Below are positions 1 through 8,654 of a stretch of DNA of 64,000 nucleotides, in pieces. Origin of the DNA: Alphaproteobacteria bacterium (lineage in GTDB: Bacteria; Pseudomonadota; Alphaproteobacteria; Micavibrionales; Micavibrionaceae); the NCBI GenBank assembly GCA_018608245.1, contig JABAZY010000017.1, positions 30,582 through 94,581 of the forward strand. The letters are read 5' to 3'. A program made the translations under genes and the position numbers. Under the pieces are notes generated by a model that worked only from the letters and a program-made list of their open reading frames with translations, was not told where the DNA came from and did no database searches. How positions within the stretch are numbered: position 1 is the stretch's first letter; each line of letters begins with the position of its first letter.

Positions 1-2402
1 CGTCTCATCCTACTGGAGGATATGTTGTAGATATATGGGGCGATGGCACCTATATTTATACTGCTGATTATACAGAGGGCATTAAAGCTTATAGCTTTGA
101 TGGTACGACATTCACCGAATTAGATAGAGTAACAGGAAGTGGAACTACCAGAGGTATATGGGGTGATGGCACTTATATTTACTCTTCTAATGAGGCCAGT
201 GGAATTTTTGCCTATACCTTTGATGGCACAACTTTTACTGAAGTGGGAAGTTATGATTTTCCTGCGGGCCATGCCTATAAGATATGGGGCGATGGTACGT
301 ACTTATATTCTGCAGATAATAATGGTGGATTACATGCCTATACTTTTGATGGCACAACTTTTACTTTATTGGATACATATCCTACGGCTGCAGGTTTTTT
401 TAATTATGATGTAGGAATAGATGGTACTTATATTTATAATGCTGCGGGTGTAAATGGCGTAGATGCTTTAACGTTTGATGGCACAACTTTTACGCACGTA
501 GCAAATATTGATTTTGGTCCTCATAATGTAGTTGGCTTAGAAGTAGAGGGTAATTATATTTATGCTGTTTCTAGCCATGCAAGCGGTTTTAATCAGGGTA
601 TTCATGCGCTTACGTTTGATGGTACTTCTTTTACTGAAGTAGATCATATAACTTCGAATAGTTATAATGCCGTTGATATATTTGTTGACGGTAATTATAT
701 TTTTATGGCGAATTATCAATTTCAGATTCGTGCTTTTACCTTTGATGGCTCTAGTTTTGTTGAAGTTGCTACCATTGGGTCACCAAATTTTGTTGGTACT
801 GTTTGGGGAGACGGCACTTATGTTTATGGTGGATTAGCAGGTTCAGGTATTCGGGCACATTCCGGATTTGAATGTTTATCCTATAACAGTGAAATGCGCC
901 TCACGAAAGATGGTACATTAGGCATTAATAAACCTACTCCTCAAGCAAAAATTCATTCTGCCAATCGTATCCGTTCTGATGAAGGGATTATGATTGGTAA
1001 TGACACCAATTGTTCGACAGGCACAGATATCGGCGTTATGCGCTATACGGGTACACCAGCGGAACCGTTTGAGGTTTGTGATGGCACAGCATGGCAAGGC
1101 TTAAGTACTTATACGGCGGCAACTTCATCAGTTGATACGGTTAATTGTTCTCCTATTTCTTTTGAATTACTGGATGTAGCAGATGTTGCGCTTAATACAG
1201 CGATTGAAACGAATAGAATTTTAATTGGCGGTTTGGAAAGACCTTGTGATTTATCGGTGGCTTCTGATTCATCCAGTATCACGATTAATAAAAATGGTGT
1301 CGATGAAACAGGTACAATCGTTTCAGTCGATAATGGTGATGTGGTTTATTTAAAAATTAGATCAGCTAATGCCGAAATAACTGAAACAAATACGTATATA
1401 TCTTTGGGAGATAAAACAGATCAGGTGACCATTGAAACGGAATGTACAGGAACACTGACAGAAGAAGATACACTGACAACAACTGAGTTAAATGATGTTG
1501 TTAGTATAATCATTGATGGTGATTACGCTTATGTTGCTACCATTGGGTATGATGGATTGGTTTCAGTAGATATCTCTGACCCTACTAATATGTCACAAAC
1601 TGATAGCGTTACTAATGGTAGTGATATTTTAAATCCAGGTAAGATGGACATACAAGGTGAGATTGTATATATCGCTGTTTATGGCTCAAGTAGAATTACG
1701 AGTGTTGATATCTCTGACCCCACTAATTTAACGATATTAGATAGTACAAGCGCCACAAATATTTCTAATCCAGGCGCGGTTGCTATTAAAGGAAATTATG
1801 CATTTTTAGCCAATAGTGATGGTATTATTTCTATTGATATTTCTGATCCCTCTAATATGACGGAAGCTGATTATCTATCTTCCACAGATATGGATGGTGG
1901 TGCGGATATTAAAATTATCGGAGATCATGCTTTTGTCGTTGCTTATACAGATAGAACACTTACATCAATAGATATATCCGATCCTACTAATATGTCACAA
2001 ACTGATAGTACGACATCCCCATCTAGTAGTTTAACTGCAGTAAACGATATGGAAGTTAAAGGAAATTATATTTTTGCTACTTCTAATCTTACAGATTCAG
2101 TTGCTGTCTTTGATGTTTCAGATCCAACAAACCTAACTGAAATTGAAAATTATGTTATTCCTAGCGCTTCTGATTCTGGAGCGATAGCGTTATTAGGAAA
2201 CTACGTGTATGTAGGCGACAGTAACGGAGGTGGAGGGCTTGCTAAAGTAGATATATCTGATCCAACAAATTTATCTGAAAAAGCGTATACGACGTCAACA
2301 AACATAAATAACCCCGTCGCAATTGCAGTAAAGGGTGAGTATGTATTTGTTGGTGCAACCGCAGATGACAGCATTACTTCTTTTAAAATTAAGTGCCAAT
2401 AA
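1..2402 (+). CDS. Large repeat surface protein, 5' end outside window (WGDGTYIY and LVIVD-type repeats)
   Basis: The frame is open from base 3 onward, so the gene starts upstream of the window; the ATG at 243 is internal. About 290 residues of tandem 41-42 residue repeats come first, each with a WGDGTYIY-like strand, an AYTFDG turn and FTEV. A short module with GNDTNC and CDGTAWQ follows near 990-1110. The C-terminal 300 residues hold at least five LVIVD-type repeats, each with a DISDPTN motif preceded by a G-N/D-YAY/F-V strand, as in predicted beta-propellers. No catalytic motif is visible. The next gene starts 15 bp downstream and shares the 41-residue repeat and the GNDTNC/CDGT module, so the two are probably co-transcribed. 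A role as a surface or secreted binding protein is inferred from the repeats; the signal or anchor would lie in the missing N-terminus. Confidence 0.8.
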   Translation, partial: SHPTGGYVVDIWGDGTYIYTADYTEGIKAYSFDGTTFTELDRVTGSGTTRGIWGDGTYIYSSNEASGIFAYTFDGTTFTEVGSYDFPAGHAYKIWGDGTYLYSADNNGGLHAYTFDGTTFTLLDTYPTAAGFFNYDVGIDGTYIYNAAGVNGVDALTFDGTTFTHVANIDFGPHNVVGLEVEGNYIYAVSSHASGFNQGIHALTFDGTSFTEVDHITSNSYNAVDIFVDGNYIFMANYQFQIRAFTFDGSSFVEVATIGSPNFVGTVWGDGTYVYGGLAGSGIRAHSGFECLSYNSEMRLTKDGTLGINKPTPQAKIHSANRIRSDEGIMIGNDTNCSTGTDIGVMRYTGTPAEPFEVCDGTAWQGLSTYTAATSSVDTVNCSPISFELLDVADVALNTAIETNRILIGGLERPCDLSVASDSSSITINKNGVDETGTIVSVDNGDVVYLKIRSANAEITETNTYISLGDKTDQVTIETECTGTLTEEDTLTTTELNDVVSIIIDGDYAYVATIGYDGLVSVDISDPTNMSQTDSVTNGSDILNPGKMDIQGEIVYIAVYGSSRITSVDISDPTNLTILDSTSATNISNPGAVAIKGNYAFLANSDGIISIDISDPSNMTEADYLSSTDMDGGADIKIIGDHAFVVAYTDRTLTSIDISDPTNMSQTDSTTSPSSSLTAVNDMEVKGNYIFATSNLTDSVAVFDVSDPTNLTEIENYVIPSASDSGAIALLGNYVYVGDSNGGGGLAKVDISDPTNLSEKAYTTSTNINNPVAIAVKGEYVFVGATADDSITSFKIKCQ
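33..880 (+). repeat. Tandem ~123-bp coding repeats (WGDGTYIY unit), first array
   Basis: Units begin at about 33, 156 and 282 (period 123-126 bp) and continue in more diverged form to about 880, giving roughly seven copies. Each encodes I/VWGDGTYIY, then G-I/V-RAY-T/S-FDG and FTEV. The same unit recurs at 3453-4130 in the next gene. Confidence 0.85.
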
Positions 2403-2417
2403 TACAGAAAGAATAAA

Positions 2418-5400
2418 ATGAAATTTTTAAAACGCTACAGACGGACAAGAAAAACAGAAAAAGGAAATATCTTTTTTATGCTTTTTGCTGCTGTCGGTGT
2501 TGTTGGCGCATTAGGGGTCGGTTCGACCACAATTCTAAAAGGGCCAGTAAGTAGTATGGTTAAAACCAATCAAGTAACCATGATTGAAAATCGTGCAGAG
2601 CTTGATTTAAAGTTAATGATTAATAATATCATTACCACAACGCCAGATTGTGACTCTGATGACACAATAGAGGCGATGGAGTGGCGCGATGCAGTCGGTG
2701 GTGAACCACCGGTCATTACAGGCGGTGGTTACCTTCCTGCGGCTATTGCAGGGGCAACGACAGACCCATGGGGGCGTGAATTAGGGTATTGTGTATGGGA
2801 TAATGGTTCTGCGATTGATGATGTGGGTTGTGGCGGAGCAACACAAGACAGGCTTACGGGGTCAATTCTAACAGACGAGCCATTTGTGGCAGTTGTTTCT
2901 GCAGGACCCGATCAAAAATTCCAAACAAGTTGTGTTGATTTTGTTGATACAACACCTGCTGATGGCGACCCAGACACGCCATTAATCGCACGCGTTGCCA
3001 ATAGTGACGATATTGTTCTGACCTATACTTACGATGAATTAAAAGCAGTGATGGGTGATAATTGGTTATATACCTCTGATAGCGTCGGGGAAGATACTGT
3101 TAAGACAAATCAAGGCGTTGAAATAACAAATGATGTCACTATCTCAACGGGTGTCTTAGATATGAATTTATTGGGTGGAACCTTAAGTCTATCCGAAGTA
3201 CCAGGAAGCTGTACTGTTGCAAGAGATGGGCAAATGTTCCGTGATGCATCAGTAACCCCTCCTGCCATTATGCTGTGTGATTCAGGTACGTTTGTCTCCA
3301 TTGGTGGTGGCGGCGCTTCTAGTGACGATTGTGCAGGTAAAACAACAGGCATCTGCATCGGCTTCGATCCAGAAGCTGCAAATTGTGAAGTAAATAATGG
3401 CGATCCTTTTGTTGAAGCAGGCGCTATTGCCACACCTAATCTTGCCTTCGGTGTTTGGGGCGATGGCACATATATATATGTTGGAGTGAGGGACGACGGC
3501 GTACGTGCGTATACATTTGATGGGTCAACATTCACAGAAGTAGGTGCTTTTAATACACCTGGCCATTCCCATAGTGTATGGGGCGACGGCACATATATAT
3601 ATGTTGGTGATACATTTAGTGGCGTACGCGCCTATACATTTGATGGATCAACGTTCACAGAAGAAGGTTTTTTTAATACACCTGACAGTGCCTTCGATGT
3701 CTGGGGAGATGGCACATATATATATGTTGCTGACAGCGCAAGTGGCGTGCGTGCATATACATTTGATGGATCAACGTTTACAGAAGTAGGCGCTTTTGAC
3801 ACACCTGACAACGCTACTGGTGTATGGGGAGATGGCACATATATATATGTTGGTGATGCAAATAGTGGCGTACGTGCTTATAGTTTTGATGGGTCAATTT
3901 TTACAGAATTAGGTGTTTTTTATTCACCTGGCCAATCTGGTGCTGTATGGGGCGACGGCACATACATATATGTTACTATAAATTCTGAAGGTATAGCGGC
4001 ATATACATTTGATGGATCAACTTTTACAGAAGTTGATATTTTTGAAACTGGAGGCAATGCTAATGACATCTGGGGCGATGGAACATATCTTTATGTTTCT
4101 ACTCAGGCAGGTGGTTTACGCGCTTATTCTGGCTTCGAATGTACATCCATCTCTGCGAAGCCAGAGATTGATACAAAAACCGATAGAAACACCAAAATTT
4201 ATGGTTGGGGTGGAAATGGAAATGCTCAATTTGTTGATCCTGCTTACGGTACAACTGATCAACCTTCGGCGGTTGAAATCACAGGGTTAAATGATATTAG
4301 AAGAATTTCATTAGGGATTTCTGGACACGCTTGTGGAATAGATTCAAACGATCAAGCATGGTGTTGGGGTGAGGCATCTAACTTTAAACAAGGGCATAAT
4401 AATTTTGGTAGTAATCAACCACCAACAAAAGTCATTGGTGAAAATTCGAATTTTAAATCCATTTCGGCGGCACTACGACATACATGCGCGTTGAAATATG
4501 ATGGAACGGCATGGTGTTGGGGGTATAATAGTGATGGGCAATTAGGCGATGGTACTATTGGAGGCAGTAGGGCAACACCAGAACAAGTTGTTGATATTAC
4601 TGATTTTATTGATATCAGAACAGGTGGTGATAACACGTGCGGTATACGCAAAAATAAGGAGTTATGGTGTTGGGGTGAAGATGATAATGGAGAGCTAGGT
4701 AATGGGACGTTATTAACCGCTGACTTACCGAGACCATCAAAAGTACAAAATTTATCTGGTGTTGTACAAATTGGTTTTGCTGGATATGATTCAATTTGTG
4801 CACTTACTGAATCAGGAAATGTCTGGTGTTGGGGACAAAATGATCGTGGACAACTTGGTATAGGATCAGTTACTGCAGATCAACCTTTGCCTGTTAAAAC
4901 AAAAGTTTTATCAGATGTTATACAAATAGCTCAATACCGCGAGGGTGCATCTGCTTGTGCTTTAAAGCAAGATGGAACAGCATGGTGTTGGGGACACGGG
5001 TTTGAAGCACAATTAGGAAATGGTTCAACAAGCCGTCAAGAGACACCGACACAAGTAGCAACAATTACAGATTTTGTTAAAATTTCTACTTTGGGGCAAG
5101 GGGGCTGTGGTTTACGTGCCAATGGTGAAATTTGGTGTTGGGGTGCTGATGGTAGTGGGCAATTAGGGAACGGCGCGGTTACAACTGGGAGTCAATACAC
5201 GCCTGTTTTAAGTGATCCAACTTTAAAATTCTATGATTTTGTGTCACAATCAAACGAAGTAATTGCTTATACAAAAGACTACACCGACGGTGATGAAAGC
5301 TTACCAGTAGCACCTGTGATGATTCAACAATCTCATGACGCGGGGGAGGCCGTTGGGTCGCATGGTTTGGCGGTAACCTATAATGGACCTTCTGGCGATC

Positions 5401-7961
5401 GCGTTGGTATTGCACTTACTGTTGATGCGGATGCGGATAGTGGTGACCCTACTTCGGTAAATATTAATGCCCGAAAAGGTACATCAGAACATGAACTTCG
5501 GTTTACAACGAACAGCACCGATATTTTACGACTTAAAAAAGATAGTTTTACTATAGGTAATGAAAACGGTGTTATTGGAACTAGAGTAGGTCAGTTACAA
5601 ATAGGTGTGCATGATGGAGGTTGGAGTTTAGATCTTTCCTATATAGATGGTCTTTTAATTTCTAAAAAAGGTGTTGCTACACTAAACCCATCTTACTTTG
5701 GGGTTAATTCAGAAACGGGTGAGACAAATATTTTATCTGGCCGTGAATTACTTATTCAACATACGGATGATACAGGCGTCACAATTGCACCTGTTGCCTC
5801 TTTTTTAAATAATACAGGCAGTACATTCTTTGGTGCGGTGAATATACGCGGTGGTGATTTCACCATTACGGCATACACAGACACAGCTACTGAACATGCG
5901 TCCTATAAATTCTTCCGCTACCGTGGAGATGCAACAACGCCAACACAAGCTATAGGAAGTGATCATTTAGGTAGAGTTAGATTTTTAGGGTACGCAGGTG
6001 GAAATTACACAGGGCCCGCAGATATTCAATCTCGATTAATTGGTAACTTTGGTGTTGGTGATTTGCGTACAAATTTAATAATGAACACAGGTTCAATTAG
6101 TTTTGGTGGTGCTTCTGTGAATGACTTTGCTGTAAATTATGATGGTATTGTGCTTTTTAACAGAGCGGTCTCTCCTAAATCTCTCTTGACCATCGGTGGG
6201 CGCGGCGCGGCGGATGAGGGTGTTAAGTTCAGTAACGACACAACCTGCGCCAGCGCGGCTTACGACGAAGGTACAATCCGCTGGACAGGTACAACTTATG
6301 AATATTGCGATGGAACACAATGGTTACCTATGATACCAACTGCGGTCGGTAGCACCTGTACCGATGATGAAACATTTTATGATATAGGCTTAGGATTAGA
6401 ACATAGTTGCGCTGTCTACTCTAATGGACAAGTGGTTTGTTGGGGACGCTCACATCTTGGTCAATTAGGAAATGGTACTCTGAATTTAGAAGAAGCTTCT
6501 TTGATACCAATTTCTAGATCGGTCATTGATGACGCAATTAAAGTGGCAAGTGGGTGGGGCCATAGCTGTGCTTTAACAAAAAAAGGTGAAATTTATTGTT
6601 GGGGTGGAAACTCAGTAAATGGAGAATTGGGTAATGGTAGTGCTGATAGTATGGATTTTCCAATTAAAATTGCCTCTCCCGAAAAATTTATCGATGTTGG
6701 TATTAACCATCAACACGGTTGTGGAATTACTGAAGACAATGCTCTTAAATGTTGGGGTAATGGCGGATCAGGTCAATTAGGAGATGGTGGATCTACTGAT
6801 GCTACGATTCCACAGGATGTATATGGTATTGATAACGCAGTTAAAGTTTCTGTTGGGTATAATAATACATGTGTCGTTTTAGCAGATAAAACGGCCAAAT
6901 GTTGGGGTGATAATGCCTATGGTGAATTGGGTAGAGGAACATTTACTGCTTTCGAATTTCTACCTGGCGCTGTAACAGGTTTAACGGATGTTATAGATAT
7001 AGATATAAATGGTCGATTTAGTGGTTCTCCAGTTTATACAGCCTGCGCTGTAAAAACGGATGGTACGGTGTGGTGCTGGGGTAGTAATGGGCAAGGTCAA
7101 TTAGGAAATGGTAGTACAGGAGCGGCTCAAGCCAACCCATTACAGGTCACTGGTATTACAAATGCTATTGATGTTGAAGTAGGAAGGGAGCATGTATGTG
7201 CTTTACGGGCTGATGGAACAGTGTCGTGCTGGGGAGATGATCTGCATGGTAAATTAGGAAGTGGTGCATCGACTTTAGATAGTAGCACGCCCGTCACTGT
7301 CACTGGTATTGCAACAGCCGTTAAAATAGATGTTGGGGATAGACATAGTTGTGCTTTATTGTTTGATGGCGCAATGCAATGTTGGGGAAATAATGCTTAT
7401 CATAGGTTAGGTGACGGAACCAATACAAATCGCCCTGAGCCTGTTGATGTAATAAATTCATTATCGTGTGATTCAGATAAGTATGTATTTCTTACTTCTA
7501 TCTCTTATCCAGCTGATTTAGGTGGATTAGAAGGCGCGGATGCTGTTTGTCAATCGCATGCCGATCAGGTGAGGTTACCAGGTACTTATAAAGCCTGGCT
7601 GTCCGATAGTACGAATAGTCCATCCACAAGATTTAATAGGTTAGATTCTACGTATGATTATAAGCTTGTGAATGGTACAGTTGTTGCGGACGGTTGGGAT
7701 GATTTAACAGACGGTACAATTGATACTCCAATTATTGTGACTGAAGAGAACGTTACACTAGCAAATGATGTAGTTCCTACAAATACTGCTACAGATGGAA
7801 CGGCTTTTAATGCAACAGAAAACTGTGCTAACTGGACAACTAGGTCAGGCGCATTGAATTATAATCGTGGACGGTTCAGTGTTAGTGATTCAAGATGGAC
7901 TTTTGAAGGTTCTACAAGTTCATGTAACTCTACGCATAAATTATATTGTTTCCAGCAATAA
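2418..7961 (+). CDS. Giant prepilin-like, multi-propeller surface protein with C-terminal DUF1554
   Basis: An 1847-residue protein. The N-terminus is basic (about residues 1-15), followed by GN and a hydrophobic helix at about 17-40. That is the layout of type IV prepilin or pseudopilin leaders, although the exact cleavage motif is not certain. After a roughly 300-residue head come six 41-residue WGDGTYIY repeats (346-575) and an RCC1 block of seven CWG-containing repeats (about 592-933). A middle region with phage-tail-fibre-like flavour includes a CDGTQW module (to about 1310). A second RCC1 block of seven repeats lies at about 1320-1681, and a DUF1554 domain at about 1688-1847 (LGGLEGADAVC, KAWLSDST; a lectin-like fold). 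Most RCC1 repeats carry two cysteines, suggesting disulfides and an extracellular location. It lies 15 bp behind the related upstream gene, and its stop abuts that of dnaQ. An adhesin role is inference. Confidence 0.85.
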   Translation: MKFLKRYRRTRKTEKGNIFFMLFAAVGVVGALGVGSTTILKGPVSSMVKTNQVTMIENRAELDLKLMINNIITTTPDCDSDDTIEAMEWRDAVGGEPPVITGGGYLPAAIAGATTDPWGRELGYCVWDNGSAIDDVGCGGATQDRLTGSILTDEPFVAVVSAGPDQKFQTSCVDFVDTTPADGDPDTPLIARVANSDDIVLTYTYDELKAVMGDNWLYTSDSVGEDTVKTNQGVEITNDVTISTGVLDMNLLGGTLSLSEVPGSCTVARDGQMFRDASVTPPAIMLCDSGTFVSIGGGGASSDDCAGKTTGICIGFDPEAANCEVNNGDPFVEAGAIATPNLAFGVWGDGTYIYVGVRDDGVRAYTFDGSTFTEVGAFNTPGHSHSVWGDGTYIYVGDTFSGVRAYTFDGSTFTEEGFFNTPDSAFDVWGDGTYIYVADSASGVRAYTFDGSTFTEVGAFDTPDNATGVWGDGTYIYVGDANSGVRAYSFDGSIFTELGVFYSPGQSGAVWGDGTYIYVTINSEGIAAYTFDGSTFTEVDIFETGGNANDIWGDGTYLYVSTQAGGLRAYSGFECTSISAKPEIDTKTDRNTKIYGWGGNGNAQFVDPAYGTTDQPSAVEITGLNDIRRISLGISGHACGIDSNDQAWCWGEASNFKQGHNNFGSNQPPTKVIGENSNFKSISAALRHTCALKYDGTAWCWGYNSDGQLGDGTIGGSRATPEQVVDITDFIDIRTGGDNTCGIRKNKELWCWGEDDNGELGNGTLLTADLPRPSKVQNLSGVVQIGFAGYDSICALTESGNVWCWGQNDRGQLGIGSVTADQPLPVKTKVLSDVIQIAQYREGASACALKQDGTAWCWGHGFEAQLGNGSTSRQETPTQVATITDFVKISTLGQGGCGLRANGEIWCWGADGSGQLGNGAVTTGSQYTPVLSDPTLKFYDFVSQSNEVIAYTKDYTDGDESLPVAPVMIQQSHDAGEAVGSHGLAVTYNGPSGDRVGIALTVDADADSGDPTSVNINARKGTSEHELRFTTNSTDILRLKKDSFTIGNENGVIGTRVGQLQIGVHDGGWSLDLSYIDGLLISKKGVATLNPSYFGVNSETGETNILSGRELLIQHTDDTGVTIAPVASFLNNTGSTFFGAVNIRGGDFTITAYTDTATEHASYKFFRYRGDATTPTQAIGSDHLGRVRFLGYAGGNYTGPADIQSRLIGNFGVGDLRTNLIMNTGSISFGGASVNDFAVNYDGIVLFNRAVSPKSLLTIGGRGAADEGVKFSNDTTCASAAYDEGTIRWTGTTYEYCDGTQWLPMIPTAVGSTCTDDETFYDIGLGLEHSCAVYSNGQVVCWGRSHLGQLGNGTLNLEEASLIPISRSVIDDAIKVASGWGHSCALTKKGEIYCWGGNSVNGELGNGSADSMDFPIKIASPEKFIDVGINHQHGCGITEDNALKCWGNGGSGQLGDGGSTDATIPQDVYGIDNAVKVSVGYNNTCVVLADKTAKCWGDNAYGELGRGTFTAFEFLPGAVTGLTDVIDIDINGRFSGSPVYTACAVKTDGTVWCWGSNGQGQLGNGSTGAAQANPLQVTGITNAIDVEVGREHVCALRADGTVSCWGDDLHGKLGSGASTLDSSTPVTVTGIATAVKIDVGDRHSCALLFDGAMQCWGNNAYHRLGDGTNTNRPEPVDVINSLSCDSDKYVFLTSISYPADLGGLEGADAVCQSHADQVRLPGTYKAWLSDSTNSPSTRFNRLDSTYDYKLVNGTVVADGWDDLTDGTIDTPIIVTEENVTLANDVVPTNTATDGTAFNATENCANWTTRSGALNYNRGRFSVSDSRWTFEGSTSSCNSTHKLYCFQQ
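3453..4130 (+). repeat. Six tandem 123-bp coding repeats (WGDGTYIY unit), second array
   Basis: Unit starts at 3453, 3576, 3699, 3822, 3945 and 4068 are spaced exactly 123 bp; the last unit is cut short. DNA identity between units is high by eye, and the GGGCGATGGCACATATATATATG core recurs with few changes, so slippage or recombination could change copy number. Confidence 0.9.
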
Positions 7962-8654
7962 TTATTTATTCCAAATAGCGTTTTTTAAATCTTCTAGCAT
8001 TTTACTATGAGACGCTATTTCATCATCATTAGCTGAAAATTCTCTTGGTTCACGATACGTACGTTCAATAGTTTTTGTCGAGATATTTGTTGTTTCTTCT
8101 TGGTTAGTTTCTTTTTTCGTATCAATGTCTAACCCACGCTGACGGCCACCGAGAAGCTCCATATAAACTTCCGCTAGTAACTCAGAATCGAGCAACGCCC
8201 CATGAAGCGTACGGTTAGAATTATCAATTTGAAAACGACGGCATAACGCATCTAGGTTAGCAGGTGATCCTGGAAATTTTTTACGCGCCATCCATAGTGT
8301 GTCAATAATACGTCGCTTATCAATGGACGGAAAACCAAACATTTTCAGTTCCGCATTAATGAACTTCATATCAAATTCAGCATTGTGAATAACAAGTTTT
8401 GAGTCAGTGCCCAAAAAATCTAAAAAATCACCTACAATTTCACCAAAAGTAGGTTCACTTTTTAAACGCTCTTCTGTTAATCCATGAACGGCTACAACTT
8501 CGGCAGGTACATCGCGTTCTGGGTTAATATATTGATGATACGTACGCCCAGTTGGCATATGGTTATCCAACTCAATACAACCAATTTCGACTATTCGGTG
8601 ACCTTCCGTTGGATCCATACCTGTGGTTTCTGTATCTAAGACAATTTCAATCAT
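7962..8654 (-). CDS. dnaQ: DNA polymerase III epsilon subunit (3'-5' proofreading exonuclease)
   Basis: This is the proofreading exonuclease of the replicative polymerase. The DEDDh residues are visible: D7 and E9 in the first motif (VLDTETTG), an aspartate in HNAEFDMKF, then H and D in [10 protein letters not shown]. The 230-residue length fits bacterial epsilon, with a roughly 50-residue low-similarity tail that would hold the polymerase-binding part. The start ATG overlaps the stop of the amidotransferase gene (ATGA), so it is the last gene of the operon. Its stop directly abuts the end of the giant repeat gene on the other strand, and no obvious terminator lies between them. Confidence 0.96.

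Follow-up and report, generated by a model that had tools for sequence, protein, structure and literature searches.

A giant modular protein with a pilin-like N-terminal module and three predicted propellers: a putative pilus-tip adhesin of Micavibrio-group bacteria

The gene and its predicted domains

The stretch of DNA analysed here, which we call the window, comprises 64,000 nucleotides of contig JABAZY010000017.1 (positions 30,582 to 94,581) from an alphaproteobacterium of the family Micavibrionaceae. Its subject is the gene at 2418..7961 on the + strand, which encodes, from an ATG start, a giant pilin-like modular protein of 1847 residues and is the last of three tandem paralogues; all features given below lie on the same strand. 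The protein begins with a basic, class-III-signal-like leader (2418..2465, residues 1-16) that ends at an invariant Gly16 and a putative prepilin peptidase site, G/N. It continues with a hydrophobic segment and long helix (2466..2639, residues 17-74), which are pilin alpha1-like, and a small domain (2640..3065) with DPWGxxxGYC and SAGPD motifs, which the alignment, AlphaFold2 and hhalign together suggest to be GspG-like by motif and place. A Cys-rich linker with low model confidence follows (3066..3407; AlphaFold2 and sequence).

A preliminary description of this DNA had read the protein as a prepilin-like N-terminal helix, six WGDGTYIY repeats, two RCC1 blocks, a tail-fibre-like middle and a C-terminal DUF1554 domain, and this order is confirmed. 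The WGDGTY(I/L)Y motif occurs in exactly six copies (residues 347, 388, 429, 470, 511 and 552), as had been claimed, and the domain carrying them (3408..4142) is modelled by AlphaFold2 as a closed six-bladed propeller (residues 332-571; predicted local distance difference test score, pLDDT, about 90-96). It has no Pfam match; its best structure matches are NHL, strictosidine-synthase and gluconolactonase propellers (VIA Z 22-28), which are themselves six-bladed. The RCC1 blocks, at about residues 592-933 and 1311-1681, are found by Pfam (WD40_RLD, 7e-116; RCC1, 1.2e-84, in 13 stretches), and the repeat count bears out seven repeats in each. The two cysteines seen earlier in most of these repeats are indeed present, 10 residues apart, in 13 of the 14, the exception being the first repeat of block A; block A (4191..5216) therefore has the pair in six repeats and block B (6348..7460) in all seven. 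AlphaFold2 closes block B into a seven-bladed RCC1 propeller that matches UVR8 (VIA Z 38.6, 2.8 Å over 348 residues), whereas for block A it gives RCC1-type blades in a less certain model (Foldseek TMt to UVR8 up to 0.61). Closed propellers are thus predicted for the WGDG domain and block B, while block A is less well resolved.

Between the RCC1 blocks lies the middle region (5217..6347), common to the orthologue, to a paralogue in the orthologue's genome and to a relative carrying an S74 tailspike chaperone domain. The tail-fibre character ascribed to it stands only in part: residues 936-1310 match no Pfam or PHROG family and pLDDT is about 25-39 across the first 340 of them, but the region is homologous to part of the S74-carrying relative (3e-10). 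The DUF1554-like C-terminal domain (7461..7958) is likewise a qualified assignment. Its Pfam score (PF07588) is 22.9 bits in the whole protein against a cut-off of 27.5, but it rises just over the cut-off, to 29.5, in a frame search with neighbours, and the orthologue scores a clear 47.9 bits.

An N-terminal family with variable ends

Of 58 genomes from the organism's order, 37 have matches to the first ~220 residues, in open frames of 94 to 5730 residues. Relatives came with this N-terminal query; with the whole protein as query, the first scan of genome contigs returned no relative. Named members are mostly Micavibrio or unclassified Alphaproteobacteria metagenome-assembled genomes (MAGs), together with Stappia, Nitratireductor, Devosia, Afifella, a Mesorhizobium MAG and a few others, and in a class-wide sample only 8 of 289 genomes matched, three of them in the window organism's own taxonomic family. 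Judged by sequence similarity, these ~220 residues constitute a previously undescribed family that is order-wide and extends to a few other Proteobacteria. A phage origin of the N-terminus was considered and dropped, there being no match among phage records.

The C-terminal ends vary. A DUF1554-like end is found in other members besides the window protein, and alternative tips include S74/YadA tailspike-like, LVIVD and laminin-G domains. A hydrophobic segment lies at the C-terminus of 15 of the 48 members whose C-terminus is complete, and the S74 chaperone with YadA-head repeats was found in three scanned members that end in such a segment or are related to members that do. Since S74 domains cut themselves off, this segment may be absent from the mature protein.

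The Stappia member has a Shufflon_N match (3.9e-10); the window protein has none in Pfam. Beside the Rhizobiales members a shufflon-like invertible segment was sought and rejected, no clean inverted repeats being found. As a separate observation, the family member in Stappia, Nitratireductor, Devosia and Afifella has, immediately upstream and in divergent orientation, a gene of the serine resolvase/invertase type (L073 5011-5592, L076 4935-5552, L109 4771-5397 and L146 5018-5623, all on the - strand), an arrangement seen at 4 of the 9 loci outside the Micavibrio group vs 0 of the 66 others.

Pilin-like features of the N-terminal module

Across 39 aligned members of the order, the residue before the putative cleavage site is Gly in 39 and the residue after it is Asn in 38, and the 12 residues preceding the Gly have a net charge of 0 to +6. 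Short basic leader, Gly and hydrophobic segment together fit the pattern of a class III signal. AlphaFold2 predicts an unbroken helix over residues 18-74, alpha1-like in the model, and then a small beta domain, and none of the 39 members lacks the prepilin-like leader or the helix. Gly at mature position 14 is shared by 39/39 family members and 12/14 pilins, compared with 6/77 control segments. The prepilin peptidase looked for in the genome is present, as two A24 peptidases.

In a search of PDB sequences with the family profile, EpsG was the top match (E 0.15). Comparison with GspG by hhalign gave 58%, confined to the ten residues of the DPWG motif, which is equivalently placed, and reversed and shuffled controls of this comparison stayed under 1%. 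In the fold searches of the models, propellers filled the result lists, so that the lack of a GspG or pilin chain in them carries no weight, and the evidence on the small domain is the GspG motif similarity. A direct profile link of the module to known pilin families was rejected as unusable (best match T2SSG, E 0.07, in one member), and no GspK model of the type II secretion system (T2SS) is among the Pfam or NCBIfam matches of the 39 members.

A type IVb-like pilus operon and its co-occurrence with the family

The genome has two pilus or secretion systems, on contigs C5 and C54. The C5 system, T2SS- or type IVa pilus-like, combines a canonical prepilin with genes resembling those for PilT, a secretin, PilM and a prepilin peptidase, the last being full-length. 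The C54 operon, type IVb-like (G000:C54 8858-20165), encodes a secretin, a T2SSE ATPase, a T2SSF protein, a short A24 peptidase and two small proteins, which have the same type of leader as the giant family and likewise no Glu5. Over 40 columns of leader and hydrophobic segment, the giant family aligns with the family of the first small protein by hhalign at 94.8% (E 5.5e-8), and a profile match at 6e-7 is also seen for family members of genome G016. Apart from this, the family of small pilus-operon proteins is matched 42 times in genome G040, vs 5-12 times in most relatives, and several of these 42 matches contain internal stop codons; they may represent silent cassettes or copies in decay.

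The C54 operon matches, gene by gene, an operon on a conjugative plasmid of Rhodoferax ferrireducens (secretin 5e-53, ATPase 3e-79, F protein 4e-27, small proteins about 1e-12). The Rhodoferax gene after the last small protein is the sole plasmid match of the family's N-terminal domain (E 8e-7 with a Nitratireductor query), and its position is that of pilV in R64. About 800 bases past this homologue lies a phage tail assembly chaperone gene.

Among the 58 genomes, the family and the C54 operon marker occur together in 36, the family only in 1, the operon only in 7 and neither in 14 (Fisher p 1.5e-7); in genomes at least 95% complete the corresponding counts are 29/0/2/10. Because the genomes are related, a TopA tree of 54 of them was built, a quick single-protein tree in which 20 of 51 inner branches are starred. 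On it, 9 independent pairs differ in the family; on average, the operon follows the family in 7.1 of them and goes the opposite way in 0.3 (median sign-test p 0.016, range 0.008-0.125 over pairings). The C5 marker, used as a control, gave 32/5/17/4 (p 0.71), and the independent pairs showed no association with it. The linkage of the family to a pilus rests on three supports: homology to the small proteins, the homologue in pilV position and co-occurrence across genomes.

Discussion

Based on these findings, we propose that the window protein is probably a putative GspK/PilV-like, minor-pilin-like tip adhesin without Glu5, served by a C54-type pilus, and we regard it as quite likely, from the homology and co-occurrence described above, that the C54 system serves the pilin-like module. 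In the mechanism that we envisage, a pilin-like carrier module is fused to a string of binding domains. A prepilin peptidase would cut the basic leader after Gly16, and the long helix, together with the small domain, would fit the protein into the type IVb-like pilus of the C54 operon, as homology and co-occurrence suggest. Because Glu5 is absent, the protein would probably enter the pilus as the first, and hence the tip, subunit; this predicted tip position we hold to be reasonably probable. The cell would in this way present on its outside the three propellers, disulphide-rich or compact, and the DUF1554-like end, which, to judge from the domain types, would act as an adhesin. The likeliest target would be other bacteria, given the Micavibrio lifestyle, which is the weakest step of the scheme; adhesion to prey or other bacteria, predicted from domain types and precedents, is a tentative possibility.

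Several observations weigh against this proposal. Glu at mature position 5, a pilin hallmark, is found in 0 of the 39 aligned rows, and N_methyl (IPR012902) matches neither the family members searched nor, in a search of its own genome, the window gene, since Asn stands at +1 and Glu is missing at +5. The likeness to GspG is restricted to one short motif. Aligned at the cleavage site, the hydrophobic segment bears a suggestive resemblance to those of pilins and no more: 86 of 2000 column shuffles did as well, and an offset of 3 was equally good. The window gene lies between secB and dnaQ, outside any pilus operon and with no pilus genes adjoining. In G007, a draft genome at 87% completeness, the family stands without the operon marker, and 7 genomes show the reverse. 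The Rhodoferax homologue (L147:11749-14898) starts with a Sec-like signal peptide, and therefore the small domain can exist without the pilin helix. Finally, the arrangement of domains in the AlphaFold model is unreliable (predicted template modelling score 0.45). The prepilin-like helix of the preliminary description is thus upheld as to the Gly and the one-piece helix and not as to any pilin profile. Because of the missing Glu5, the missing N_methyl match and the ten-residue limit of the GspG similarity, we call the module, as known from sequence and model, pilin-like and do not class it as a type IV pilin. The idea of a minor-pilin-tip adhesin fares similarly: invariant Gly, helix, pilus-operon homology, the PilV-position homologue and phylogeny-corrected co-occurrence speak for it, while the lack of Glu5, of a pilin profile and of adjoining pilus genes speaks against it.

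These same points would fit an ordinary surface protein that stays in the inner membrane by means of an N-terminal signal anchor which is not cleaved, or leaves by another export route, its co-occurrence with the operon reflecting a shared lifestyle: the missing Glu5 and pilin profile, the gene's place outside a pilus operon and the only suggestive similarity of the hydrophobic segment to pilins all favour such a protein, while a Pfam match to a Gram-positive anchor is at noise level only (E 0.19). We nevertheless consider it unlikely. The hydrophobic segment is preceded by an invariant Gly followed by Asn and belongs to an unbroken 57-residue helix, and the homologies to pilus-operon proteins and to the gene in pilV position go together with an association with one pilus operon and not the other system. 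Moreover, an inner-membrane anchor alone would strand 1.8 thousand residues of disulphide-rich propellers in the periplasm.

The Sec-like signal peptide that replaces the prepilin-like leader in the Rhodoferax homologue recalls tip-associated or secreted substrates of pilus systems, such as PilY1 or CofJ-like proteins, which are not filament subunits, and the S74 tailspike-like and phage tail-fibre modules of relatives also suggest modular receptor-binding proteins. Retention of the prepilin-like leader and helix in 39/39 aligned order members makes this rather improbable for the window protein. A pseudopilus subunit of the C5 system could be argued from the GspG-like motif at the equivalent place and from the full-length prepilin peptidase and true prepilin that C5 carries, but the family does not co-occur with the C5 marker, and the distribution across genomes leads us to disfavour this as very improbable.

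Returning to the proposed tip adhesin, the closest precedent is PilX2 of Nanosynbacter lyticus TM7x, a minor pilin with a seven-bladed RCC1 propeller and a non-canonical signal peptide; this episymbiont lives on other bacteria, and deletion of PilX2, which is needed for full host binding, reduces that binding (PMC12206443). The window protein thus extends an already known kind of protein. The likeness drawn here is one of description, and PilX2 differs in belonging to an unrelated phylum, in having one propeller and in being encoded in a pilin locus, whereas the window protein has three propellers and a DUF1554-like end. PilV of IncI plasmids (R64, TP114), whose variants select recipients (PMC9045228), likewise joins a constant pilin-like N-terminal part to variable receptor-binding ends, and the family has its distant homologue in pilV position on the Rhodoferax plasmid as well as the Shufflon_N match in Stappia. 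However, R64 PilV keeps Glu5, the window protein lacks Shufflon_N, and no shufflon or inverted repeats were found; location at the 3' end of a thin-pilus operon holds for the Rhodoferax homologue but not for the window gene. Modular pilins such as PilB and PilC of Streptococcus sanguinis, which bind ligands and of which 264 architectures have been counted, S74 among them, also graft binding modules onto a small pilin module, but they are defined by the IPR012902 motif that the window family lacks, and the longest multi-domain one noted has 860 residues (PMC8179133). A place at the tip or as first subunit has been proposed for large minor pilins whose position 5 is hydrophobic, and GspK-type minor pseudopilins, large and without Glu5, are of this kind (PMC5207764). 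In contrast to the window family, which has no GspK profile match and carries its extra domains after the pilin-like module, GspK has them inserted in it. The earlier statement that no described protein has this domain order must consequently be narrowed: an RCC1 minor pilin and many modular pilins are published, and the three-propeller pilin order was not found in the open-access literature searched, where absence is no proof of novelty.

A cultured member of the Micavibrio group feeds on other bacteria from outside, and a predatory lifestyle may be attributed to the window organism by analogy with such relatives. In Micavibrio aeruginosavorus, the cells attach to their prey and pilus genes are expressed, and the paper on the ARL-13 genome names pili and hemolysin-like and lectin-like proteins as candidates for recognising or holding prey (PMC3189940). 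The family supplies named candidate genes for epibiotic prey recognition, together with the pilus machine that is probably used. It has a parallel in an unrelated episymbiont, whose binding to its host requires a minor pilin with an RCC1 propeller. If the proposal is true, modular pilins would be extended to much larger proteins without Glu5. Speculating further, and with distinctly less expectation of being right, order-wide Glu5-less pilin-like carriers with interchangeable tips (propellers, S74 modules, lectins) could form the end by which a dedicated type IVb-like pilus recognises prey; within that same speculation, such carriers, of up to several thousand residues, might be a bacterial counterpart of phage tail-fibre diversification.

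Tandem paralogues and neighbouring genes

The two paralogues directly upstream carry the same N-terminal module (46% and 42% identity). The 3' part of the second, with WGDG and LVIVD propellers, occupies 1..2402 on the + strand, its start lying upstream of the window at about G000:C22 27727. Runs of N interrupt the upstream reading frames, and the open reading frame lengths there may fall short of the full lengths. Genome G009 has at the same place three tandem genes of 2838, 1715 and 1880 residues, the last being the orthologue of the window protein. The cluster (window 1-8000, L002) is flanked by mltA-tim44-fxsA-secB-like and dnaQ-coaE-aroE-maf-like genes, named by eye, and parts of the same mltA-to-maf neighbourhood stand beside a family gene in G001-G004, G009 and G035. 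The number of blades of the WGDG propeller differs within the tandem cluster, the WGDG domains of the upstream paralogues (L002:9511-12387 and L002:13754-14662) having seven repeats vs six in the window protein.
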